From the NCBI GenBank assembly GCA_027575765.1, contig JANBPT010000097.1, forward strand, positions 1 to 64,000: 64,000 nucleotides of DNA, read 5' to 3'. Numbering within the stretch: position 1 is the first letter of the stretch; each line of letters begins with the position of its first letter. A model generated the notes under the pieces. It was given only the letters and a program-made list of their open reading frames with translations, searched no databases and had not been told where the DNA came from. The DNA comes from Tieghemiomyces parasiticus. Lineage: Eukaryota; Kickxellomycota; Dimargaritomycetes; Dimargaritales; Dimargaritaceae. The position numbers and the translations under genes are program-made. Below are positions 39,917-64,000 of this stretch, in pieces.

Positions 39917-40994
39917 GTCCGAGTGCTTGTCTGATGGCGTTGGGAAGATGGTGTTGGTCGGTCGGTCGCGTTGCACCGAAGGCGTAGGAGTGGCCAACGA
40001 GCTGGGCAGGCAAGACAAGAGAGCAGTGTGGAGCGATGGGCAATGCAGAAAGGTTCGGAGCGCACAGGTGGATGCGCAGGCCTAGGCCAGCACTTTGCTG
40101 CACCGCGCCTGACGATCGGGCGCACGCCTGAGCCCTGGCGTGGAAGCCCTGCCTGGACGGGTTTGGTCTTACTAATCCTCTGGCATCCCACCTCCTGCCG
40201 CAGTAGCGGACCTAGACTAGCAGAGCCTTGGACTCCAATGTGATGCTCCCAACCACCAACCCCACCTTGTAGCAGCGACGTGGATAGTGGTTTATATGAC
40301 ATTGAGACGCTAGCCTATAGATAAGTCGTATGCTCTGAGTACCGTCGGGAGGATTGGGTCCAGCCACGCCTGCGCTCGGACTCCCGAGCCTAGCCCTCAG
40401 GGTCAGGTGCTGCGTGGTGGTTTTCACCAGTTTTGCGGTACAAAGCTGCGACCAGAGAGCCGGTGTTAATCGGCGAGGTTAGCCACCACCGTGGGCGACG
40501 GCTGCGGCCTGTTTAGCATCCGAAGAAGTTGCGGCATGGGTTACTCTGCATTATCCACACGGGCCCCAATGATCACGACGGTTTGGCAGCGGCGCACGCC
40601 GGTTCGTCGCTCTACTACGCCCGTCAATGTCGTCACTGGCCTTTTTTTTTTGAAGCCAGCATGGACCCTAGGCCCACCTTCCCCACACCCCCATGGCCCG
40701 AGAGTGACCGGCTGTTCGCATCTGCTATAATCAGCTCCGGCCCGGAGAATCCTCTGAACTGATCCGCGGTACCTCCCCCCCCCACTCTGACCCATCTCAT
40801 CCCGTGCGATCTTCAATTGGTTCATAACTCGGCATTATTTTATTTTACTAACCGTGCTTCCCTGTCTGCCTCACGATCCGTGCTCACTTTGCATTCATCC
40901 CGGATCGCAACGCTATTGTCTCATACCCACTTCCCTCGCCAATCCACCGGGGGTTATTTTTTTTTCATCTCGCATAACCCGCTACTTCACCATC
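39917..40994. other. Divergent promoter region between COG4 and eRF3
   Basis: About 1.08 kb. The final 150 bases before eRF3 are CT-rich with T runs, consistent with a strong promoter and 5' UTR. Several Pro/Arg/Gly-rich frames up to 136 codons overlap on opposite strands and look spurious. Confidence 0.5.
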
Positions 40995-42680: not shown

Positions 42681-44298
42681 GGCGTTGAAGTGGAAATCGG
42701 CCGTCCAAGCCATTAGAGGAGGGGGAGGGGAGCCTGTGGAACGGACGGTCTAGGCTGCACTCTTCCACCCCCCCAAACTTCTTGTCTTGGTGGAAGGCTA
42801 TTTTCCCGGCCGGTTAAGTCCAATAGTTTACATATTTCATTATTTTCTTTGCAACCATATTTTTTATGCAATAAATGCCAGTCGGCTAACCCGGGGCACT
42901 GTTTGAGACTTCTATTGTGAGGCCCTCTTCTCAATGTTATCGGTCGTGATCAAAGCACATGGCCTGGTCGGGACTCAGATATATCCCTAAGTACTCCAAA
43001 CATCACGACCCAGCCTCCCTATACTCCACCACCCCATTCTAGAGAGGTATGGGCCAACGCTAGTCCTTTCCAAAGAAGCATCACCATCATCGACATGCTT
43101 TCATGGTATGCGACAAGCTGCGGCAGACCACTCAGCAGGTGCGTTCTCCATGGCAACATCAGTCACAGGGATAGATTGCACAGTCGGGTGAGACGGGGGG
43201 CGCCGCACCAATGTGATCTTATCGGCCCCCACTTCCAATGCACTACTTAATATAATACCAATCCCTGCCCAATCCCTTCCGGGGCTGTCGAGATATTTGA
43301 TCACCAGTGGTGGGGCACAGCATGTAGCCGTGGGTTCGTACGTCATGGCCGCCACTTTAGCGTTCCCATGATAACAGCTAGTTTAGCGGTTATCACAGTC
43401 CCCACATACTTCACATTGGGGTCACTTTAGATGCTGTTAATTACTCCTACCGAGGACCTCCTGGCTTGCTTCCCCGTTCCCCTCCCGCACTGTTTAATCC
43501 GTACGCGCCCATCGGGTTCTGCCCCTTGTCTCTAGCCTTCCCGCCTAATCAGGAACTAATTGAGCCTGGATGTTGTTGTCGCCCACAGTGGGCAAGTTAA
43601 CGCTCTCATTAACTGACTGAGGGGACCAGTGCCTTTTAGGCGCCCTTTACAGTGGGAAGCAAGGGGATTGGCGGTTAGAAAGTCGTCCGAATGTAGTGCT
43701 CAAGGCCACCTCTGGGTAGGCCGGCTGGATAAATTAGGAGATAAGGTTTGCGGTAGGGGTGGTGGCTGCGAGGGGCAGGGGAATTGCGGGATTTCAGGAT
43801 GGGCGAAAAGCGAGGGGCAGGTATCAGATTCCACACGAATGATTGGATGGACCGTGTCGGTTCCGTCATTTGCGGAGCTGGCAGCCATCAGACCCTCTTG
43901 TGCAAGCCGACCAACTTGCTCGGAAAATACATGCCCTCGGCTCACAGCCAAAGGGATCTTTTAGGGCAGTAGGGACTACAGATAAGCCTTTATGCGGACA
44001 TCTTGAGGCCGACTACCCTAGAAACAAACGCTTTCCTCCGCCCGGCGTCTCATTAGCTCACTTACCTTTTTTTTATCGGCCGTGTATCTGCCGCTCGTCC
44101 AGATACCCTGGGTAATACAGTTGTGCCACTCTATCCCTTCGCCGCAATACAGCTTTCTGGCACAACCGTTTCGACGTTCCCCCTCCCACTGCGACCTTGG
44201 CTTTGCACATTCACCGCTGTACCGATAGTCTCTCCTACCCTTGTGTCGGCTACCAAAGTCCAGGCCAGTTTCGCCCAGCACCACCTCCCGATACCACT
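42681..44298. other. Long intergenic region after eRF3, no gene recognised
   Basis: About 1.6 kb between two plus-strand genes. The first 200 bases hold the eRF3 3' UTR with an AATAAA. The rest has only short overlapping frames; an 84-codon minus-strand frame at 43101-43355 has no ATG at its edge and no known relatives that I recognise. A CT-rich tract precedes the FUSC gene. A non-coding RNA or decayed gene cannot be excluded. Confidence 0.45.
42870..42875 (+). terminator. Probable polyadenylation signal of eRF3
   Basis: AATAAA about 190 bases after the eRF3 stop codon, following a T-rich stretch (42841-42867). This is the standard layout for a poly(A) signal; the cleavage site itself cannot be placed from sequence. 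Confidence 0.5.
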
Positions 44299-47200
44299 AT
44301 GCTTCGACCCCCTTCGCCAGGTCCTGACCATGCTAACTCGCCGCCATTCGACCACACCCCTACTCGGGTCCTATCCCGTAGCAGCACTGCCCCGTCAGCC
44401 CGGGTTTCATGGGCTGGTCCCGCTCTCGGCACTGGCCACCGTTCCCGATCGATCCACGCCACTGACGAGCCGGGCGCTACCCGACCCAAGCTAGACCGAC
44501 CGGCTTCCTACATGGGCGCTCCCGCTGCTGCCCTTCCGCCGCCCGCCCCATCTGCGCCCATTCCTGCCGCGGCCACCCCGACTCCGGGCCCGGGTCCGGC
44601 CCAGACGCCGTTTCTAACACTGCCCCGCCGCCACGTACTCAAGGCCGCCCTCGCCTTTATCGTTGCGTCGCTCTTCTCGTTCCACCCAGCCCTGCAGGCC
44701 ATTGTCGGCAACTCGCCGCACCTGGTGGCCAATGCGGTTCTGTTTTTCAATCCGGTGCGTTCTCGGGGCGCCTTTATCGAGTCGGGCGCCATGGGAGTGC
44801 TGGGCTTAATCTACTCGGCTGTCCTGGGCTATCTGAGTCTCTGCGTGGCGACGGCCTTGGTGTCCTACGAGGGGCTTGTCATCACCAGTAAGGTCATCAG
44901 CCTGGTCGTGTTCATTTTCATCCCCATCTTTGTCCTAGCCTACGTCAAGGCCAACCTCGGCCGCCCGGCCATATACACGGGTAACTCGATTGCCCATATC
45001 ATGCTGCTCATTGTGCTCACCCAGGAGACGCCCATTGTCCACTTTGATGGTGTCGTGGACCCAAAGCGAGCCGAGGATAACGCAGCGGCCTTGCTCATGG
45101 GCCTGGTCATTTCATTCCTCATTGGCTGGTTCCTCTGGCCGCAGCGCGCCCACACCCGCCTCCAGCGCAGTATCCATGGCACCATAGACTCTTGCCAGCA
45201 CCTGCTCCATGAGATTGTGGACGTGTTTATTCTGGACGGCTGGTCGATCGGAACGTTGCCGAATGGCGCAGACGGTCTTTCCGAGGACAGCGTCCATCTA
45301 GCCCTGCTCTCGCCAACTCCCGAGGCCCGCACACGGTCCACGGCCCTGGCCGGTCTGCTGCAGAAGCACCGGCAGAGCTTCACCACCTTGGAGAAGGCTC
45401 TTGACGAAGCCCGTCCAGAGGTATCCGAGTACCACGCCTGGCGCATGCGATCACTGTACGCCAGCGCCGTACGGAGCCTCAATCAGCTCTCCCAGCACCT
45501 GGGCGGGATCTACAGCGGCGTCGACACCCAGATCCGCTGGATGCGGCGCGACCTAACCACTGCCGACACCCCACCGCCCACCCCGACCGGCGTGACGCCT
45601 TCCTCCGCGTCCACGGGTGCCATTCTTACCACCCGGCAGAAGAATGAGCTGGTATCGCTCATCGAATTCATCGCCCACGTCCAGCCGACCCTGGTGGCCC
45701 TCACCAACGGCTGCCAAATGACGTTTTCCAGCATCCGGACCATTCTGGACGCCTCGTTCCAGGCCCGCCCGGACGACACCGCCGTGTGGGCAGAGGTGCG
45801 CCAGCAGTTGACCGACCGACCGTCGTCCCCACAACCGGCCAGTCTACCCCCTGAGCGGGTACGCCTACCTTCCCAGCTCTGGCGTCAGCTCCGACAGATT
45901 ACCTCCCAGGCTGTCCGCGACGCTGGGCAGCTTGGGGAGCCCCTATTTCGGCCTTTAGCCCGCGGTACCACGTACGGCACCCTGCCTACGGCTACCCGTG
46001 ACGCAGGTGGATGCCCAGCCTGCTTCGTCTGCCGCCAGTGCGGCGGCCGGGCAGTCCGGCCCGGTACGGTCGCCGAAGACATCCACCGCAGCCGTCCCTG
46101 TACGTACGCCCTCCTCCGCCGGCTGCGAGTGCACCTTATCGCCAACCTCGAGTGCTTTAATGCCGCGTACACTCACGCTCTCTCCGAAATGTATCACCGG
46201 CGTCCGCTCTGGCGCCGCTGGCACGACGCGTACACCTCGCAGCCCGAGCCAATGGGGGTTCCCTCATCCAGCGCACCTGGTCCACCGGCTAGCAGCGCAG
46301 GAAACCTACCGACCCCAACGGGCCGGCCCCCGTCGAGCGCGTCCCTCACCTCCCTCTGGGTGGCCTTCGGCACCCCGCCGGCCGACCCTTCGCTCTTGTC
46401 ATCGAGTACCGCCTCCCCGTCTCTCTCCCCGCGGCCCGGCGAGGGATTGCCCGAGGTGGGCCGCCGACCCAGCACGCACGTCGGAGTCCCATCTCCGCTA
46501 CGCCACACCACGGAGGAGGGTCTTTCCCATAGTATGCATGGCTCCGAAGGCTCGTCCCTGTCTCGAGAGTCCTCCACCCACGCCGCTCTGGGCTCCCACC
46601 CTTACGAACACCTCTTCACCGTCTACTTCTTCGTCTTCAGCATCCAGGAGTTCGCCGCCGAACTTCTCAGCCTACTACGCGTCACCGAAAATATCGTTGC
46701 CGCCCATCCGCGGTTGGGCCGTGCCGGTGGATGTGAACCCCTCGGGGCCACACCTGACCGTGGCCCAGCCGCTCCCTGCGAGTGTGATACGCCGGTGGAT
46801 CCCCACCAGCCTGCGTCGCCCTGCTCACCGGCCTCGTTGATCGTCAAGCCCGGCGGCTCTCCCGGCATGCCAGGCGGCACTGAGATTGACGCGGCCCCGG
46901 TCTTTGTCCGCACCCCGACCCAGAGGTCTCTCGGCGCAAGCTTGCGACACGGACCTAGCCTCATGATATCTGCGGTTGGCAACTTCCTGAGCTGGCTCTT
47001 CCGCCCCCCATCGGAGCACCGTGAGTGGCACATCCCGGCCTCCGAACTGGACCCGCCGGGCCTGCACAACCCCGTCCCGGCCACACGGGACCAGGCCGTG
47101 CGCTACCGTCTGTGGCGCTTCTTTCTCTGGTTCCGCTGGTTCCAGACCAAGTACGCCATCAAGGCTGGCACCGTCGCCACCCTACTGGCCCTGCCGGCCT

Positions 47201-48807
47201 TCGTCGAGTCCTGGAACCCCACCTTCCGCGCATTCCGTGGGGAGTGGTCGGCCATCACGGCCCTCGTGGTAATGACACCCACCGTCGGCGGGTCCAATAT
47301 CACCTCGGTGTATCGCGTCCTGGGCACCGTGGTCGGGGGCCTTGTGGCATACTTGGTGTTCTTACTCTGCGACGAGACCTACCTCCCCGTTCCGAGCTGG
47401 CTCGTCGGTTTGTACCATCTTTTACTCCCCTCCGCCGCCTGGCGCGCCACTCTGGCCCACCTTGCCGACACCCTGGTGCCATTCCCCATCCTATTCCCGG
47501 TCACCATCTTTCTGGTGACCCTCCCGGGCTTCCACCTGCTGCTCAATTCCAAATTTCCCAAGGTCGGTCAGTACTCGCTCATCACCTTCTCGGTGGTCCT
47601 CCACAACAAGGTCAAAGGCGGCGAGGATGCTGACGTGCCCATCGGATCCCTGGCTATGCATCGTACGACTGCAGTCTTGTTTGGCGTGGTTGTGGGTCTG
47701 CTGGCCACAATTTACATCTGGCCTTTTGAAGCCCGCGTGGAGGTACGCCGTGGCCTGTCCGACCTCTTTATCAACATGTCACTGCTCTACGATAAACTGG
47801 TGTCGACGTTCTCCTTGGGTGCCGACTTGGAACCTCTGCCGGCCTCCCACGGTGCGTCCCGTCCAGTAACCCTCCACCGGCCGCCCCCGCCACCTCGCCG
47901 ACCGACTGCCGCCGGGTCTGATAGCAGCGATGACGACGACGCGCCCTGGCAGCATTCCAGTCTCACCGTATACGCCCAAGAACAGCAGTGGCTGGAGCCC
48001 CACCTACACGAGTTCATGGAGATGGAGCTATCCCTACAAAAGGCTTTACTCGGTCTCCAAATCCTGCTCAACGACACCGCCCACGAGCCGCGCCTCAAGG
48101 GCCCTTACCCGAGTCACGTCTACCAGCGCATGTTCCGCAGCTGCCAGGTCATCCTGGACAAGTTTGTAGCCGTGCGTGGGGCTGTGACCAAGCAAATGTG
48201 GCAGCTGCGTCGCCTCCACCACGTCCACCAGACCAGTACACCGCCCAGCGGCCTCTCGCGTACGGGCGGCGGTGCGGACCCTGGGCGGGTGCCCGATTCG
48301 GCCGGTGAGACTCTCGGCCGCCGGGACCGCGGCCCGTTCCTCTCGCCCATGGAAGCGTTCGCCATTAACTTCATGCACCCGTGCCGCCGGGAACGTGTCA
48401 ACATGGTCGGCTGTAGTCTCCTTTATTTTTACATCCTGGCCTCGGCCTGTTTACTCAAGACGCCCCTTCCGCCGTTCCTGCCCCCACTGACCCAGGCCCA
48501 CCGTAAACTGGTCGAGAAGATGCGACAGCTCGACCAGCAGCACCGGTTACGATACCAGCGTCGGTTTCTCAATGCCGAACAGCTGCCGACCACCACCGGT
48601 CCCACGGCAACTAATGGCGGGCCGGGTGGCGCTCGTCACGCCGAGGATGAGGCATACGAGGTCCACCACTTGTTCTACTACGCCCAAGCCGTCCTCTTTG
48701 GTGACATTGTGCGCGAGCTGGAGAGTCTGGGGGCTTGTATGGTTGAGCTGTTTGGGTGCTATGGCGGCAAGGAGTTGCGTCATTTACAGGCACACCGCAC
48801 CGTGTAG
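44299..48807 (+). CDS. FUSC-family membrane protein, BRE4-like
   Basis: Intronless, 1,502 residues, starting at the first ATG (MLRPPSPGPDHANSPP). Two membrane blocks are visible. The first spans about residues 113-290 with segments such as VLKAALAFIVASLFSF, ISLVVFIFIPIFVLAYV and LLMGLVISFLIGWFLWP. The second spans about 950-1,150 with KYAIKAGTVATLLALPAFV, VLGTVVGGLVAYLVFLL, FPILFPVTIFLVTLPGF and TAVLFGVVVGLLATIYIWPF. This double FUSC/aromatic-acid-exporter layout and the C-terminal motif LKTPLPPFLPP are typical of fungal brefeldin A sensitivity (BRE4/DUF2421) proteins, thought to be transporters. The long middle part is Ser/Pro-rich and disordered. It contains an unusual CxxCxxCxxC cluster at C572-C581. 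The substrate is unknown. Confidence 0.8.
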   Translation: MLRPPSPGPDHANSPPFDHTPTRVLSRSSTAPSARVSWAGPALGTGHRSRSIHATDEPGATRPKLDRPASYMGAPAAALPPPAPSAPIPAAATPTPGPGPAQTPFLTLPRRHVLKAALAFIVASLFSFHPALQAIVGNSPHLVANAVLFFNPVRSRGAFIESGAMGVLGLIYSAVLGYLSLCVATALVSYEGLVITSKVISLVVFIFIPIFVLAYVKANLGRPAIYTGNSIAHIMLLIVLTQETPIVHFDGVVDPKRAEDNAAALLMGLVISFLIGWFLWPQRAHTRLQRSIHGTIDSCQHLLHEIVDVFILDGWSIGTLPNGADGLSEDSVHLALLSPTPEARTRSTALAGLLQKHRQSFTTLEKALDEARPEVSEYHAWRMRSLYASAVRSLNQLSQHLGGIYSGVDTQIRWMRRDLTTADTPPPTPTGVTPSSASTGAILTTRQKNELVSLIEFIAHVQPTLVALTNGCQMTFSSIRTILDASFQARPDDTAVWAEVRQQLTDRPSSPQPASLPPERVRLPSQLWRQLRQITSQAVRDAGQLGEPLFRPLARGTTYGTLPTATRDAGGCPACFVCRQCGGRAVRPGTVAEDIHRSRPCTYALLRRLRVHLIANLECFNAAYTHALSEMYHRRPLWRRWHDAYTSQPEPMGVPSSSAPGPPASSAGNLPTPTGRPPSSASLTSLWVAFGTPPADPSLLSSSTASPSLSPRPGEGLPEVGRRPSTHVGVPSPLRHTTEEGLSHSMHGSEGSSLSRESSTHAALGSHPYEHLFTVYFFVFSIQEFAAELLSLLRVTENIVAAHPRLGRAGGCEPLGATPDRGPAAPCECDTPVDPHQPASPCSPASLIVKPGGSPGMPGGTEIDAAPVFVRTPTQRSLGASLRHGPSLMISAVGNFLSWLFRPPSEHREWHIPASELDPPGLHNPVPATRDQAVRYRLWRFFLWFRWFQTKYAIKAGTVATLLALPAFVESWNPTFRAFRGEWSAITALVVMTPTVGGSNITSVYRVLGTVVGGLVAYLVFLLCDETYLPVPSWLVGLYHLLLPSAAWRATLAHLADTLVPFPILFPVTIFLVTLPGFHLLLNSKFPKVGQYSLITFSVVLHNKVKGGEDADVPIGSLAMHRTTAVLFGVVVGLLATIYIWPFEARVEVRRGLSDLFINMSLLYDKLVSTFSLGADLEPLPASHGASRPVTLHRPPPPPRRPTAAGSDSSDDDDAPWQHSSLTVYAQEQQWLEPHLHEFMEMELSLQKALLGLQILLNDTAHEPRLKGPYPSHVYQRMFRSCQVILDKFVAVRGAVTKQMWQLRRLHHVHQTSTPPSGLSRTGGGADPGRVPDSAGETLGRRDRGPFLSPMEAFAINFMHPCRRERVNMVGCSLLYFYILASACLLKTPLPPFLPPLTQAHRKLVEKMRQLDQQHRLRYQRRFLNAEQLPTTTGPTATNGGPGGARHAEDEAYEVHHLFYYAQAVLFGDIVRELESLGACMVELFGCYGGKELRHLQAHRTV

Positions 48808-49400
48808 CGTAGTACTTGTCGATTTCAAAGGTGGGTCTACGGTCAACATCAATCCCGGCCCAGCGGAGTGATTTCGCCCCTTTGTCTCCGTTTCTAATAC
48901 CCTTTTCAAACCCCCTCCCCCGTATCTCCACTTTTAGCTGCCGAATTAACCGGCAGATCCATTGTAAGACAAGCAAAAATTTAAGATTATCGTATGTCGA
49001 GGATTGCCCGTTAATAATCTATTATATGTGACCCTCCCCTCTTAGTATTTCAGCTACACCTTGCTTCGCACCCCAAGTTTGATAGACTCCACCCAAATGA
49101 AATTTGGACCGACTGCGGCGTGGCTTCAACAGTCAGACCCTCGGGTCCACAGGGGCTTGAATAAATATTTTTTTCTCCAGCATGGCGCTCATGTGGGCTG
49201 CATTTACCCATTTGCATTTTTTTCCAGTAGCCTCCCTTGCTACATGTCCATTGCCAAACGACATTCCCACCGCTTGCCCTGTACTGCCTCATTTTTATAG
49301 GTCTACCTCTTTCTCTACCCCTATTTCTAGTCTCAGGTACCTCGGCCCAACCCGTTGACAATTCTGGAGACCCGCGGCCTATCATTCGCCTTCGCCCACC
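48808..49400. other. Intergenic: FUSC 3' flank and promoter of the repeat protein
   Basis: About 0.6 kb between two plus-strand genes, AT-rich around 48960-49030. I looked for inverted repeats that could be relics of a transposon end flanking the next gene and saw none by eye. No coding sequence is recognised. Confidence 0.5.
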
Positions 49401-52289
49401 ATGGACCGCGACCTCTACGTCGCCGAAGTGCGTAAGCGCGTCCACATGAATGCCGAGGAACGTGCGGAGATCCTGTACCTCTCGGAAGGAGGTGCCACCA
49501 TTGGCGAAATCGCCCTTCAGGTCAACCGACCCTACAAGACCGTTCAGAAGTGTTTACTCTACCTGAAAAAACATGGTTCTATTGACCCTTTGAACCAGGG
49601 GCCCGTCTTGCGGCCCGAGGCCATCACCTTCATCAAAGAACTGTTCAGGAAACGGCCCGGGTACACGATCGACCAACACTACACCCAGTTCATTCGACGG
49701 GTGCGTTACATCTGCTTCAGGACGTTCGAGAGAAAGGTTATGGAACTGGGACTGTGGTCGCTGCCCGCCCCAGGTACCGCCGACCCGCCGCCGCCCGACC
49801 AGGTATCCAGTCCCTCATCCATTTTCGATGCCAAGGCTGAGGCCTTCATCCGCAACGACCTTGAACTTAGCCCGGACATGCCGGTCTGTAACCTCCACGC
49901 GCGGTTCACTAAAGCCGTGGGTCCCGTCGACTACCAGGTGTTTAGGGCAAAGGCCAAGGAACTAGGCTATAAAGTGCCCAGAGTTGACAACAACGAATCC
50001 ATCGCCTTCATTCGGGCGAGTTTCGCGGAACACCCCGAATATACCATGGGTCAGCAGCACATGCGCTTCGTCAAGGAAATGCGGGTGATAGGGTTTTCTC
50101 TGTTCAGACTAAATGTGCACAAGCTAGGGCTCCAAGCCGCCGGGGACCATGAGGACCCGCAGCCCCTTACCGAGCCCGAGGCCACCACCTTCATCCAGAA
50201 TAACCTCCAGCGCTACCCAGACTACCCCTCAACCTGGCACTTTGCCCAATTCATCCGCGAGGTGCGCGAAGTGACTTATCAGCGTTTCGTCCTGACCGCC
50301 CGCCGATTGGGCCAATTTAGACGGTTCGTTCAGCAGGACCTCAGCACCGATTCCCAGGCCGTTTCTTTCCTTCGGGCAAGCTTCGCAGAGCACCCCGAGT
50401 ACACCCTAGATCAGCAACACGCGCACTTCGTCAAAAGGTTAAGGGAGGTCGGCTTCCGTCGCTTTGAACAAGCCGTCAGAACACTCGGACTTCGGGCCAC
50501 CGCATGCGACGAGGATGCACCGCCCCTCACCGATTCCGAGGCCATCGCATTCATCAGGGCTAGTTATCGTAATTGTCCCACCGAGCCTCTATCCTACCAT
50601 CACCTCAGGTTCATCCAGACAATCCGCACGGTTTCGTACCGTCAGTTTCGGATCACTGTTATCCATTTGGACGTTGGCAAGCTATGCAGGCAGCGACTTG
50701 CCGAGAATAACGAAGCCGCTGCCTTTATCCGGACCAGTTTTGAGGAGCACCCGGATTATACCCTGGCCCGGCAGCACCTACACTTCGTCAAGACTCTGAA
50801 GGAGGTTCGATTCCGCCAGTTCGAGCGAGCTGTCAGGGAACTCGGTCTCCGAGCCGCCACCGACCGCCAGCTCCCAGCTCCTCTGACCGAACCCGAGGCC
50901 GTTACTCTCGTTCAGGCGAGCTTCAGTCAACACCCGCGACGCCCACTTGCGTGGCACCACCTCAACTTCGTGCGCACGGGGCGCGATGTCACCTATTGGA
51001 GTTTCCGGGCCACCGCTATGCAACTGGGCCTATTCACCCCGCCCACTATGCGCAGCCTCCCGAATCAGCTTAGTGCTGAGTATGTAGACACATCGGACGA
51101 CGAGGCTGGCGCCGAACTTGAAGAGGAGGACGCTGACGACCTTACTGACGACGAGGATCTTGGCGAAGCTACTAATGACGCCGATATTATCGAAATGGAA
51201 GAGGAGGAGCTTGGAATGTGGACTGACCCGCCCGAGGCGGCGACCGAACCGGACACGGCATCCAGCGACAGCAATGACGAAGACTCGGACGAGTCGGATA
51301 CACTGCAGCAAACCAGACGGCCGGCGATGCAACACGCATCTGCAACGGCTGAGCGTGGCACGCTGGCCAGACGGTCAGCCTCAAGCGCAAACATGACACC
51401 CGAGGCCATGGTCCAGCGTCGCTCGCCGGGCAAGGCCACTGCGAGCCGCGCTTCGCTACTACAGGCTCTGACAGCCCCGTCTGCCAAGGGCGGCGGTTCG
51501 GCGTCCGCCATGACCCCTACACCGGCGAAGGTGGGTAGCATCCTATCCGAGGCCGCCTCCCAATTCGTCCAACCACGACGCGACCTGGGCATAACGTCAC
51601 CCTCGAGTAACGGCCCACAAGGGCGGGGAAGTGCGGCGGCCCGCAACGGCCCAGGGCCGAGTTGTACAACTTCAACCCCGCGTCAGCACCCTGGGGCCAG
51701 CAGACAGCCCACCCGCCCCAACCGAGAGCAAGGCCCGGCACATAACGTGACAGTCAGTAGTACCGGATCCAAGGCAATTCTGTCGATACCGCCACTTGGA
51801 CCTACTCCAGCCGTCCAGCTTACCTCGCAGTCGGGTAGGAAGCGCAGGCGAAAGGCCCGCCCCAATGCAAGTGGAATAGTGAAGCCCGCCACCACAACCC
51901 AAGCAGATACTCAAATTGCGCCAGCCTCGAAACCGATCCAGGCTAAGCCCCCTGTCCAACAGCCGGGTAAGAAACGCAAACCAAATCCGCAACGCAGCGA
52001 CAACGAGCCCGTGAAAGTTACTACCACTGCGCCGCCAAATATCCAGGCACCTACACCCCAGAATAACCCTCCTGCCCAGCAGTCGAGAAAGGAAAGCAAG
52101 CAGAATTTGCAGCCCAGCGGCGGTGGACCGGTGAAACCCATTCCTGCAGCGCACCAGGCTACTCCTGGTAAGCCAACCAACGAATCCCCCGCTCAGGTGT
52201 CTAACCCACAGAGTTCCGTGAAAGGAAACCTTGCCGCGCGCCCCTCAGGCGAGAAGGAAAGCGGCCGAAATCGCACTCGCCGACGGTAG
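49401..52289 (+). CDS. Unknown protein with eight tandem 46-residue HTH-like repeats
   Basis: Intronless, 962 residues, start in good context (CCACCATGG). I recognise no named family. Residues 16-60 form a helix-turn-helix resembling the first half of a Tc1/mariner transposase DNA-binding region (GGATIGEIALQVNRPYKTVQ). Eight repeats, each exactly 46 residues, follow at 73-118, 145-190, 199-244, 260-305, 319-364, 380-425, 438-483 and 499-544. Each has the form EAxxFIRxSFxxHPxYTxxQ, then FVK, F..FE and LGL, and resembles the second HTH of such transposases. Residues 564-633 are very acidic. The tail (634-962) is basic, Pro/Gln-rich, with NLS-like RKRRRK and KKRK and its own roughly 40-residue repeats. 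No DDE catalytic domain is present. I infer a nuclear DNA-binding protein, possibly domesticated from a transposase; the function is unknown. Confidence 0.8.
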   Translation: MDRDLYVAEVRKRVHMNAEERAEILYLSEGGATIGEIALQVNRPYKTVQKCLLYLKKHGSIDPLNQGPVLRPEAITFIKELFRKRPGYTIDQHYTQFIRRVRYICFRTFERKVMELGLWSLPAPGTADPPPPDQVSSPSSIFDAKAEAFIRNDLELSPDMPVCNLHARFTKAVGPVDYQVFRAKAKELGYKVPRVDNNESIAFIRASFAEHPEYTMGQQHMRFVKEMRVIGFSLFRLNVHKLGLQAAGDHEDPQPLTEPEATTFIQNNLQRYPDYPSTWHFAQFIREVREVTYQRFVLTARRLGQFRRFVQQDLSTDSQAVSFLRASFAEHPEYTLDQQHAHFVKRLREVGFRRFEQAVRTLGLRATACDEDAPPLTDSEAIAFIRASYRNCPTEPLSYHHLRFIQTIRTVSYRQFRITVIHLDVGKLCRQRLAENNEAAAFIRTSFEEHPDYTLARQHLHFVKTLKEVRFRQFERAVRELGLRAATDRQLPAPLTEPEAVTLVQASFSQHPRRPLAWHHLNFVRTGRDVTYWSFRATAMQLGLFTPPTMRSLPNQLSAEYVDTSDDEAGAELEEEDADDLTDDEDLGEATNDADIIEMEEEELGMWTDPPEAATEPDTASSDSNDEDSDESDTLQQTRRPAMQHASATAERGTLARRSASSANMTPEAMVQRRSPGKATASRASLLQALTAPSAKGGGSASAMTPTPAKVGSILSEAASQFVQPRRDLGITSPSSNGPQGRGSAAARNGPGPSCTTSTPRQHPGASRQPTRPNREQGPAHNVTVSSTGSKAILSIPPLGPTPAVQLTSQSGRKRRRKARPNASGIVKPATTTQADTQIAPASKPIQAKPPVQQPGKKRKPNPQRSDNEPVKVTTTAPPNIQAPTPQNNPPAQQSRKESKQNLQPSGGGPVKPIPAAHQATPGKPTNESPAQVSNPQSSVKGNLAARPSGEKESGRNRTRRR
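49446..49580 (+). other. N-terminal helix-turn-helix segment of the repeat protein
   Basis: Residues 16-60: EERAEILYLSEGGATIGEIA then QVNRPYKTVQKCLLYLKKHG. The pattern (acidic first helix, GGATIGEIA second helix, recognition helix with YKTVQK, then a G-S/N turn) is that of homeodomain-like HTHs at the start of Tc1/mariner and related transposases. This is pattern recognition, not a computed match. Confidence 0.55.
49617..51032 (+). repeat. Array of eight 46-codon protein repeats
   Basis: Repeat copies at 49617-49754, 49833-49970, 49995-50132, 50178-50315, 50355-50492, 50538-50675, 50712-50849 and 50895-51032, each 138 bases, with spacers of 24-78 bases. Copies 3, 5 and 7 resemble each other (QQH..FVK...VGFR.FE..VR.LGL type), and so do copies 4, 6 and 8 (WHH..FIR..R.VTY..FR.TA..LG type). 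The true unit is thus a pair of about 360 bases, present three clear times plus a diverged first pair. Copies 3 and 5 share the 11 residues RASFAEHPEYT but differ at six of those 11 codons by synonymous changes only. Confidence 0.85.
51818..52200 (+). repeat. Basic 40-residue tail repeats of the repeat protein
   Basis: At least three degenerate copies in the C-terminal tail. Each starts with a Q-rich then basic cluster (SGRKRRRKARPN, QQPGKKRKPNPQRS, QQSRKESKQNLQPS). A PVK or IVK step and a Thr/Ala/Pro/Gln stretch ending in PPVQQ or PPAQQ follow. The basic clusters look like nuclear localisation signals. Boundaries are approximate. Confidence 0.55.
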
Positions 52290-52696
52290 AATGGCTAGGG
52301 TATTCACTTGGGTTGATATAATTTCAACATCTTCGACATATCACGACTGTGGCAACTCCATAAAGGTTAATGTATTTTTTCGTAAACCATAGGACTTGTG
52401 TGTGGTCGCTGCAACGAACATTTTGGGCCTAGAATGTAGGGTGTGTGTGTGCGTGTGTGAGGGGGGGGGTAGCCCAAGCTCGCGTAGTAAGAACCGACAC
52501 TTAGGGGGCATATGATGGCTCACTACACGCAACCTTGTGTCCTCACTTTCCTAAATGGTCGGGACCTCGCGTCTCAGTAGCCCCTCTAAAAAAGCAGCAG
52601 CTAATGGCTCTGACAGCCCCTGGGTAATTGCACTCCCCATTTTACCTTAACTCAATTTCCCCACCTCCAATTCGTCCGCATTCAATCCTTCAAGCC
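52290..52696. other. Intergenic: 3' flank of repeat protein and promoter of neurochondrin-like gene
   Basis: About 0.4 kb with a GT-dinucleotide and G-run tract at 52440-52469 (listed separately). Nothing coding is recognised. Confidence 0.5.
52440..52469 (+). repeat. GT microsatellite followed by a G run
   Basis: A GT/GC dinucleotide tract (52440-52458) followed by nine G's (52461-52469), just downstream of the repeat-protein gene. Simple repeat; no function is implied. Confidence 0.8.
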
Positions 52697-55153
52697 ATGC
52701 CGGTCGAATCCTCCGCGGGTCCGACGGAGTCTGCACCCCCCGCCGCTCTGGAACAGTGCCTTGCTCTCCTCGGCCCACGGCGGTCCGACGAGGAAAAGTT
52801 TGCCGGTTTGCTTCTGCTGACTAAGGTGGTCGAGCCGCAGGACGAGGCAGCACTGGAGCGGATTCTCGAAGCGATCGACCCCCGGTTCCTCGGTCGACTG
52901 GTCTCCGCCACAGGTAAGTTGGCTGTAATTGGCAACAATGTGAGGTGGTGTTGGGCTATTGATGCCATTTTTAATGGGTTGTTTCGAGGCCTGGCCGTGA
53001 CCTAGCTCTGACGGCTGTATCTCCTAGCGACCCGAACTGATATGTTACCCACTCACCATCCGAAACCATTTGCCCACCGTTTCCTCTGATCTGAAGGTGA
53101 GGACGCCCGTGCGTATCAGGATCTGGCCGTGGCTATCGTGAGTAGCTTTGCCGCCCACCCGCGGCTCCTCGGTCACCCTAGCCTCACAACGGTAGTGCCA
53201 GGCCTGGCCCGCGTACTCACCACTGCCCTCGCGGCCCAGGACCACGCGCACATTCACGAGCTACTCCCACTCGTGGCGCAGTTTGCCAGTGTCCCGGCGG
53301 GACTTGCTTGCCTGGTCAAGCCAGGCGCCACGCTGGTCCCGCAACTGGCGGCGTTGTTGCTATCCGACGGCGAAACAGCGACCTTTGTCCAGTCGGTGAT
53401 CCGCAGTATCCTGGTAGACCTCCCTGCCCTCGTCGCGGCCGATACGTCACCCAGGCCAGCTTCCCAACGACCAATGGTGCGGCCTAGGGATGCCACCTAC
53501 CTGTGGGCGCTGACCTTCTTTAATGCTGCCCTGGCCGTCCACCAGAGTTCTGGCTCGCGCAAACTCGCCCTACTGGAGGCTTTCTGTGACACCCTAGGCG
53601 CGCAGGCCGATACGGATTCGGCGTTTCTGCTGACTCTTATGTACCCGACGGCTGGTGACGGCCCAACGTCATCCTCCGTCACTGCGATGCCGTTGGAACA
53701 AGCCCTCCTACTCCACGCGTTCTATTACATTAAAGTGGTCATCGCCGGGACTCAGCGACGTAATTCAGGTAAGCTCGAATGCGTAAACGCCTTACCATAT
53801 TTTTATATATATTTTTTATACTCTACTTGAACAGTCTGACGTAGCTCTTGCTGCGATATCCTATGGACTAATCTGCTGGTATCTTTTTCAACTCTTTCAC
53901 CATCACCCCCTCCCCATTATCTAATGTCACCAGGCTCGACGGAGGACAAAGACGTTAGTGTCCTGGTCATAGCCCACTTGCTCCGACTCTTCGGTGACTT
54001 GTTTTTGCTTCCGGTCGGTCCCTGCCACGATGATCCGCTATCCGCGAGTATTCTCGAGGCCGAGGCCCGTATTAACCGGCCGCTCAGTGCCCTGTTAGGG
54101 AATCGGTCCGGATCACCCGCCCTATCCCTCGACATCGGCGAACAGAATGCCGAAGAGGATGAGCCGAAGGAGGCGGCGGCCTCGGTAGTCAAGTTCACAG
54201 CCCTGGCCGTCCGACTCGCCAGCATCGAGCTGAGGATCACCCTGGACGAACGCATGATCTGTCCCCCTGGAAAAGTACTGGACGTAACCACCCGCCAGCG
54301 CCACGACGACCTGGTTCCAGCCTGCCTGGTAATCCTGGAGAAGGCAATCGACTGCCTACTTCTACTCGAAGACGATGACGAAGATGATCTCAATACCAAG
54401 GCCCAGACTGCGCCCCATCACACTGTTTCGTTTCCCCGGTCAATGGACGAGACCCGCCAGAGTCTCGCTGACGCCATGGCCTCTCAGTCCCACGAGGAGA
54501 ACCTTACCTGGATGACCTCGCTGCGGGACTGCTTTGCAGCCGTGCTCGCATACCTCGAGGAGATGAAGGTAAGTTTACGTTGTGCACTGCTGTAACTGCC
54601 GGGCATGATTCGGGCAAAAGGGGGGGTGCATACCGTGCAGTGAGACCCAGATCTAACCAGCGCCCCATTTCAAACACGATACTGACCCCTTACGCCCGAC
54701 AGGAACGGTTGGGACCGACGGCCATGGTCAAGGACCCCATCCTGGTGGCCGTGTTCCGTGGGCTCTGCTTCTGGCTTGCCCAGGACCTGTCCCTGCTCAA
54801 GGACCATCCGGCCATCGTCCAGGTCTTTAGCTTGATTATCGACGCCAGGTAAGTCCATTGTTGAATGGTCGGACGCACTGTCGTACACGCGTACCATTGC
54901 TTACGGTGCCCGCTGCAGACGGCGATAGATCATTAACCGCTGACCACTCAATGAACCCGCACACGGATTCGATATCCCCCATAACAGTACCCGTTCTGCT
55001 GACGAATACCAGACCGTTCTGCCGTTTATGGCGCCGCCCGTTAGACTTTGGGCTAGTATTGCTGACGAGGCGGGGCCTGCATGTCCGATCACCCCGGCCG
55101 ACCGGGTCAAGGTCCTGGCGATGGCCCGGCAGCTTGAGTCGCTAGACTGGTAA
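52697..55153 (+). CDS. Neurochondrin-like ARM/HEAT repeat protein, five exons
   Basis: Exons: 52697-52913, 53097-53768, 53934-54568, 54703-54848 and 54988-55153, giving 611 residues (human neurochondrin 729). The N-terminal block DEEKFAGLLLLTKVVEPQDE is the neurochondrin signature. The rest is an alpha-helical solenoid: LLGHPSLTTVVPGLARVLTT, FVQSVIRSILVDLPALVAA and VFRGLCFWLAQDLSLLKDHP. The last exon ends RVKVLAMARQLESLDW. All introns are GT-AG with GTAAGT or GTAAGC donors and keep frame. An acidic loop (LLLEDDDEDDLN) sits in exon 3. In animals neurochondrin acts in neurite growth and interacts with GPCRs and Rab5. A fungal role is not established to my knowledge, so I give no function. Confidence 0.82.
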
Positions 55154-62939: not shown

Positions 62940-63118
62940 GGCGAAGGGTAAAATGACAAGTAGGGAGTTGCATTGGGTAGGAAATCCCACCACAAAAACT
63001 GAAGAGCCAACGAACCCGGGTTAGTCGTTGGCACAATGCTCATGCCTCGAAATCAAATCGCTCATGGAAAAAAAAAAAAGTGACCACGACACTACTTTGT
63101 ACTGACGCCTGATCAAAT

Positions 63119-63124
63119 AAAAAA
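63119..63124 (-). terminator. Pol III terminator of tRNA-Asp
   Basis: Six T's on the minus strand (AAAAAA on plus), starting six bases after the tRNA discriminator base. This is the expected RNA polymerase III stop signal. Confidence 0.8.
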
Positions 63125-63129
63125 GTGAT

Positions 63130-63201
63130 CTCTCCGGCGGGGAATTGAACCCCGGTCTCCTGCGTGACAGGCAGGGATACTTACCACTATACTACCGAAG
63201 A
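63130..63201 (-). tRNA. tRNA-Asp (anticodon GTC)
   Basis: 72-base tRNA without an intron. The acceptor stem pairs TCTTCGG with CCGGAGA (one T-G pair), discriminator G. The anticodon arm CCTGCCTGTCACGCAGG reads anticodon GTC. The T-arm holds GGTTCAATTCC, the standard B box; TAGTATAGTGG is the A box. A T run follows as terminator. All arms fold without mismatches that would suggest a pseudogene. Confidence 0.95.
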
Positions 63202-64000
63202 TGCTCACAAAAATTTTCGATGAATGTTAATTATCTACCTAGATTTCATTTAGTTATTTGTGGCGATCGTCCCGAGTATTTTTTTACCTCTATTCGAGTC
63301 TTTGTTGATGATCCCTCCTTGAGTGAGTCGACTGCAGTTTTATGCCAGATTTCGTGCAGGTCGCAGTATTTATTGCGCATATACACTTTACTTTCTTTAC
63401 CCAAAGTTGGTCACCTAGGGCTCAATACCAGTTCATGTTATGTGGCTTCTTATTGCCGCCATTACTTCGTGTTATTTTTTTTGCTATTTTTTTGCGTTGG
63501 GCAGTTACAGTTGCGTCCTCCTCGGGCGTAAACACCCTTGAGATTGTATTTTTCGTGAATGCGCAAAATTTTTGGCGTATTCCACCTTTTCATTGGGCTA
63601 GGTAGGGGCCTTCAGGAGAATTTCAATAAGCCATTCCAATTATCTCCCCATTTTCCCTGTACTCAGGTCATGCACCACATAATCGTTTTCCTTGTCTTAA
63701 ATTAAGGGATATAGCAGAACGCATTGGTTAGGACCATTAGCCATCTACTCAAGACTATGATTGGGTATGCTGGCAGAGAATCGCCTAAGACCAGAGACCT
63801 ATATCCGTGGGGGAGAGTTGATACACACTACCTAGTATTAATACCAAACCCAGGGCTGAGAAGTTGTCTTATTTTCGTTATTATCCGATATTGGTTATTC
63901 TCGCAGTTTTAACTGTCGTTTTAAATAATCACTAGATAGTCCCTTTCCTCCCCCTACAATTCATCGTTCCCTCTGTTCCTTTTCACTGTGCGGGTAGGGT
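63202..64000. other. Right edge, no gene recognised
   Basis: About 0.8 kb of AT-richer sequence upstream of the tRNA gene. Frames up to 128 codons run through it but are hydrophobic, Phe/Leu-rich and unlike known families. It may be the flank of a gene outside the window. Confidence 0.45.

Follow-up and report, generated by a model that had tools for sequence, protein, structure and literature searches.

Proteins that carry many three-helix DNA-binding domains in tandem are already known. The largest subunit of SNAPc has 4.5 Myb repeats, the hallmark of Myb and SANT domains being regularly spaced tryptophans. In Caenorhabditis elegans, CEH-100 has 12 tandem homeodomains of about 55–60 residues each, tightly packed, and is listed among the genes for which other Caenorhabditis species have no obvious orthologue, while CEH-92 carries a two-domain unit (double homeodomain, HOCHOB) three times (PMC4448998, available sections). 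Pax proteins (6pax, 1k78) and Mos1 (3hos, 3hot, 4u7b, 5hoo) have one bipartite pair. STAR, MOON and pTERF, treated in a survey of DNA-binding tandem repeats, use their repeats for modular DNA binding; the terms “HTH” and “helix-turn-helix” are absent from its main text (PMC11417379). Here we describe an open reading frame (ORF; 49401..52289) in the first 64,000 nucleotides (the window) of contig JANBPT010000097.1 of the fungus Tieghemiomyces parasiticus (Dimargaritales), in which a putative N-terminal helix-turn-helix (HTH) precedes eight HTH-like repeats.

Like CEH-100 and the HOCHOB proteins, it appears to be a lineage-restricted gene with many small three-helix domains of DNA-binding type in series (PMC4448998, available sections), and it shares tandem repetition of such domains with the SNAPc subunit and other tandem Myb proteins (PMC4227766, available sections). 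It differs from the former in its 47-residue unit, in matching no homeodomain profile and in the order of four linkered A–B pairs after a separate N-terminal HTH; from the latter, in lacking both the conserved tryptophan and a Pfam Myb match. Pax and the Tc1/mariner DNA-binding regions have one pair, whereas this protein has four and an extra HTH, with no sequence similarity detected between them. Modular use of tandem repeats is shared with STAR, MOON and pTERF (PMC11417379, available sections), yet the pair modelled here is predicted to form two discrete three-helix domains. The sequence-only reading had called the arrangement unfamiliar; the layout is indeed uncommon, setting this protein apart by its unit, its pairing and its N-terminal HTH, but long three-helix arrays as such have a precedent in CEH-100. 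In literature searches that left most subscription journals outside their scope, no paper on T. parasiticus was found, and no such protein appeared in the titles or abstract beginnings on helix-turn-helix repeats, tandem HTH, Myb, homeodomains or domesticated transposases.

The ORF runs from ATG to TAG without an internal stop, and its start context (CACCATGG) is one that we take to be Kozak-like. All eight repeats within residues 73–545 form a gapless alignment of 47 columns (Table 1), which bears out the sequence-only claim of eight gap-free repeats of equal length. Pairwise identity between repeats is 23–65%, and P14, F25, F37 and L44 are invariant (8/8). The mean BLOSUM62 pair score was 84, compared with −41 (standard deviation 2.9, maximum −30) in 500 shuffles permuting the residues within each repeat. 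The odd repeats form a type A (T17, F34) and the even ones a type B (P17, Y34). Linkers between consecutive repeats vary in length (25, 7, 14, 12, 14, 11 and 14 residues), whereby three of the four A-to-B linkers are 14 residues long and prolines precede the B repeat. At the DNA level, a repeat finder returned a family with spacings of 360 and 357 nt, approximately one A–B pair. The array is basic, with an isoelectric point (pI) of 9.5 and a net charge of +12. Histidine is abundant in it (window 49617–51035), with 19 in 473 residues, and column 22 is His in six of the eight repeats.

The AlphaFold2 model of the pair formed by repeats 7 and 8 is confident, with a predicted local distance difference test score (pLDDT) of 91.5 and a predicted template modelling score (pTM) of 0.83, and shows the pattern helix 1 (H1)–H2–turn–H3 twice. 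A model of the first 551 residues had low confidence (pLDDT 51, pTM 0.21) and served as a source of secondary structure only. It places three helices in every repeat except repeat 5, where H2 and H3 are merged, and three more at residues 18–29, 34–40 and 45–57 of the N-terminus. The other three pairs presumably fold like the modelled one. Structural neighbours, whose list bears mainly on repeat 8, are by title DNA-binding HTH, winged-HTH, Myb or homeodomain proteins or transposition complexes in 28 of the 50 entries, including Pax-6, Pax-5, Mos1, TnsB and DUX4; LrpC and Fur were placed among the DNA-binding entries on our own assumption. Searching solved structures by sequence gave nothing relevant with the whole array (best E-value (E) 0.4) or the repeat profile (best E 1.5), and no match with the pair profile.

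Family searches by sequence point weakly to a first HTH at residues about 18–57. Pfam HTH_23 matched residues 18–50 with E 0.013 for the whole protein and 7e-4 for residues 1–119, and HTH_38, TrmB and Tc3_1 (E 0.23) also matched the N-terminal region, all of them below the cut-off. In NCBIfam, residues 1–551 of the window copy gave a weak IS630 match at residues 20–86 (E 0.007), and the full-length second copy (see below) gave none. Taken alone, none of the eight repeats matched an HTH, homeodomain or Myb family in Pfam, a PPTA match of one repeat (E 0.025) being recorded; tryptophan occurs in at most two of the eight repeats at any column and is conserved at none. A resemblance to RFX, Pox_D5 or DUF4817 domains is also conceivable. 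PAX, found as a fold neighbour only, had no Pfam match in the protein or the repeats. No DDE family was matched in the 962-residue ORF at E ≤ 10, in agreement with the earlier statement that a catalytic domain is lacking.

Protein searches, in which 7996, 7998 and 65 candidates were scored, returned IWQ60_007508 of T. parasiticus as the sole match; one length filter excluded this protein itself, and because shared 5-residue words were required, relatives in other Dimargaritales may be missed and uniqueness does not follow. IWQ60_007508 is encoded letter for letter by another contig of the same assembly, C816 (33,206 bases), which is collinear end to end with positions 40029–73128 of the window’s contig (C1331) at 94% identity in two BLAST pieces. 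We infer that the two regions are haplotypes or homeologues of a recent doubling. Among the best candidates scored, whole-array, N-terminal and repeat 7–8 queries matched only these two contigs and no third locus. The frame and the eight repeats are intact in both copies, and residues 1–551 are free of indels; indels between the proteins are confined to the tail, where they amount to 48 residues and preserve the frame. These extra residues belong to the second copy, where they hold a third basic cluster, KKRKRK, and apparently arose by tandem duplication. When the 16 repeats of the two copies are placed in one tree, a single branch divides odd from even (78/83; 76% of bootstrap trees), a split that is likely rather than firm given the modest support and the tool’s warning of long branches. 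The natural unit is an A–B pair of about 119 residues, and the array contains four of them. Seven of the eight repeats fork with their own counterpart from the other copy (repeat 4 was left unresolved beside repeat 2), as do all four pairs in a tree of pairs; hence, the array is older than the split of the two copies.

The ratio of nonsynonymous to synonymous substitution rates (dN/dS) was calculated from the two copies, with uncorrected Fisher p-values from rounded counts. Purifying selection acts on the N-terminus (residues 1–72; 0.12, p 0.009) and on the array (0.44, p 0.001). Within the repeats, 17 core columns, picked from repeat conservation and thus not blind, gave 0.19 (p 0.004), compared with 0.75 (p 0.34) for the non-core columns; the tail, at 0.93 (p 0.78), is neutral-like. 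This pattern indicates conservation of the N-terminus and of the repeat core, and drift in the remainder. Overall, the sequence-only interpretation was supported in part. An HTH in front of the repeats agrees with the HTH_23, Tc3_1 and IS630 matches, although all are weak. The proposed resemblance of the repeats to the second HTH of Tc1/mariner transposases shows in the Mos1 and Pax fold neighbours but not in family matches or against ten mariner-like regions. A folded unit under selection fits the model of repeats 7–8, which is HTH-like, and the array’s dN/dS.

On this evidence we consider it moderately probable that the ORF encodes a host nuclear protein that binds DNA, probably sequence-selectively; it is the fold, charge and layout that suggest DNA binding. 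The N-terminal HTH and the four bipartite A–B pairs of three-helix HTH-like domains would be arranged in series, the third helices of each pair gripping DNA and the linkers of 7–25 residues allowing successive domains to track it, so that many weak or moderate contacts would together hold a long or repeated site tightly. The acidic stretch may recruit partners in an activator- or chaperone-like role, giving the protein a putative regulatory function. The basic tail would carry nuclear import signals, presumably the clusters RKRRRK (residue 813) and KKRK (residue 857). Should DNA binding hold true, the protein would be a pairwise-modular scaffold of HTH units, nine per chain, and nature’s own test of whether such domains can be linked like zinc fingers; it would also be a case of an early-diverging fungal lineage making a large protein of DNA-binding type with no relatives detected in these searches.

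The main rival is that the repeats are HTH-like in shape but bind proteins, such as chromatin or cytoskeletal partners, DNA being touched by the N-terminal HTH only or not at all. RecX modules and SANT domains are HTH-like folds that hold proteins, and such a protein would show a small fold reused as a scaffold; however, the basic charge of the array and the DNA-binding proteins among the structural neighbours speak against it, and we regard it as rather unlikely. Quite improbable, in our view, is a special form of DNA recognition in which every A–B pair reads its own sub-site and the whole a long composite, satellite or transposon site, with third helices changing between alleles, perhaps racing mariner-like copies; PRDM9 and the KRAB zinc fingers are the model for such allele-variable recognition. 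Between the copies, H3 has 15 nonsynonymous and 2 synonymous differences versus 7 and 10 in H1 (p 0.01; helix limits 1–13, 17–30 and 33–44 predate the model, from which they deviate slightly). Yet H3 does not exceed the neutral expectation (p 0.20; 0.38 in a second calculation), nor does its variability between repeats exceed that of H1 or of H2 (p 0.25 and 0.27), which weakens this proposal; diversification of the recognition helix is thus suggestive relative to H1, not significant against neutrality and unsupported between repeats. An ORF that is spurious or in decay and resembles repeats by chance would agree with the restriction of relatives to the second copy and the neutral-like tail, but the frame kept in both copies, the selection on N-terminus and array, the confident fold of one pair and a repeat score far beyond the shuffles make it highly improbable.

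A question of origin, compatible with the DNA-binding reading, is whether the gene is a domesticated Tc1/mariner/IS630 DNA-binding region that lost its DDE domain and multiplied its second HTH. The IS630 and Tc3_1 matches and the Mos1 and Pax neighbours favour this, as does the genome’s abundance of transposase copies, which we presume from their motifs to be mariner-like (DDE_3 matched 39 times at E ≤ 0.001 and HTH_Tnp_Tc3_2 41 times at E ≤ 1). On the other hand, the second copy lacks the NCBIfam match, shallow profiles gave no signal against ten genomic mariner-like HTH1 or HTH2 regions, the ORF has no DDE family, C1331 and C816 are absent from the DDE_3 matches listed, and none of five inverted-repeat pairs at 48500–53500 flanks the gene within the limits of an ungapped tool. 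Nor does the gene look like a mobile multi-copy element, as only two loci, collinear with each other, were matched among the best candidates scored. With weak family matches and no profile signal, such an origin is possible but unproven, and we hold it to be doubtful. Several of the mariner-like copies have stop-free frames of 341–367 codons.

Table 1. Features of the ORF; coordinates refer to the window.
Feature	Coordinates	Strand	Basis
Whole ORF	49401..52289	+	962 aa, intronless as read, CACCATGG start, TAG stop
Putative N-terminal HTH, residues about 18–57	49452..49571	+	family matches below cut-off, low-confidence helices, dN/dS
Repeat 1, type A, residues 73–119	49617..49757	+	repeat alignment
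Repeat 2, type B, residues 145–191	49833..49973	+	repeat alignment
Repeat 3, type A, residues 199–245	49995..50135	+	repeat alignment
Repeat 4, type B, residues 260–306	50178..50318	+	repeat alignment
Repeat 5, type A, residues 319–365	50355..50495	+	repeat alignment
Repeat 6, type B, residues 380–426	50538..50678	+	repeat alignment
Repeat 7, type A, residues 438–484	50712..50852	+	repeat alignment; modelled
Repeat 8, type B, residues 499–545	50895..51035	+	repeat alignment; modelled
Acidic stretch, residues 556–640	51066..51320	+	41% D+E, net charge −33
Basic low-complexity tail, residues 641–962	51321..52286	+	pI 12, clusters resembling nuclear localization signals, dN/dS 0.93

The gene lies among housekeeping-type genes. 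Upstream is the ORF of a FUSC/BRE4-like membrane protein (window 44197–48807), downstream neurochondrin, and further out COPI alpha, a CPSF1/DDB1-type protein, Exo84, COG4 and eIF3e. Between the two contigs, the FUSC/BRE4 frame is under strong purifying selection (dN/dS 0.09), and three neurochondrin frames gave 0.76, 0.28 and 0.42, all these frames being mechanical and possibly including introns. At the window’s end (63001–64000), the guanine + cytosine fraction falls from about 0.58 to 0.43, and a tRNA-Asp gene lies at 63130–63201 on the minus strand.
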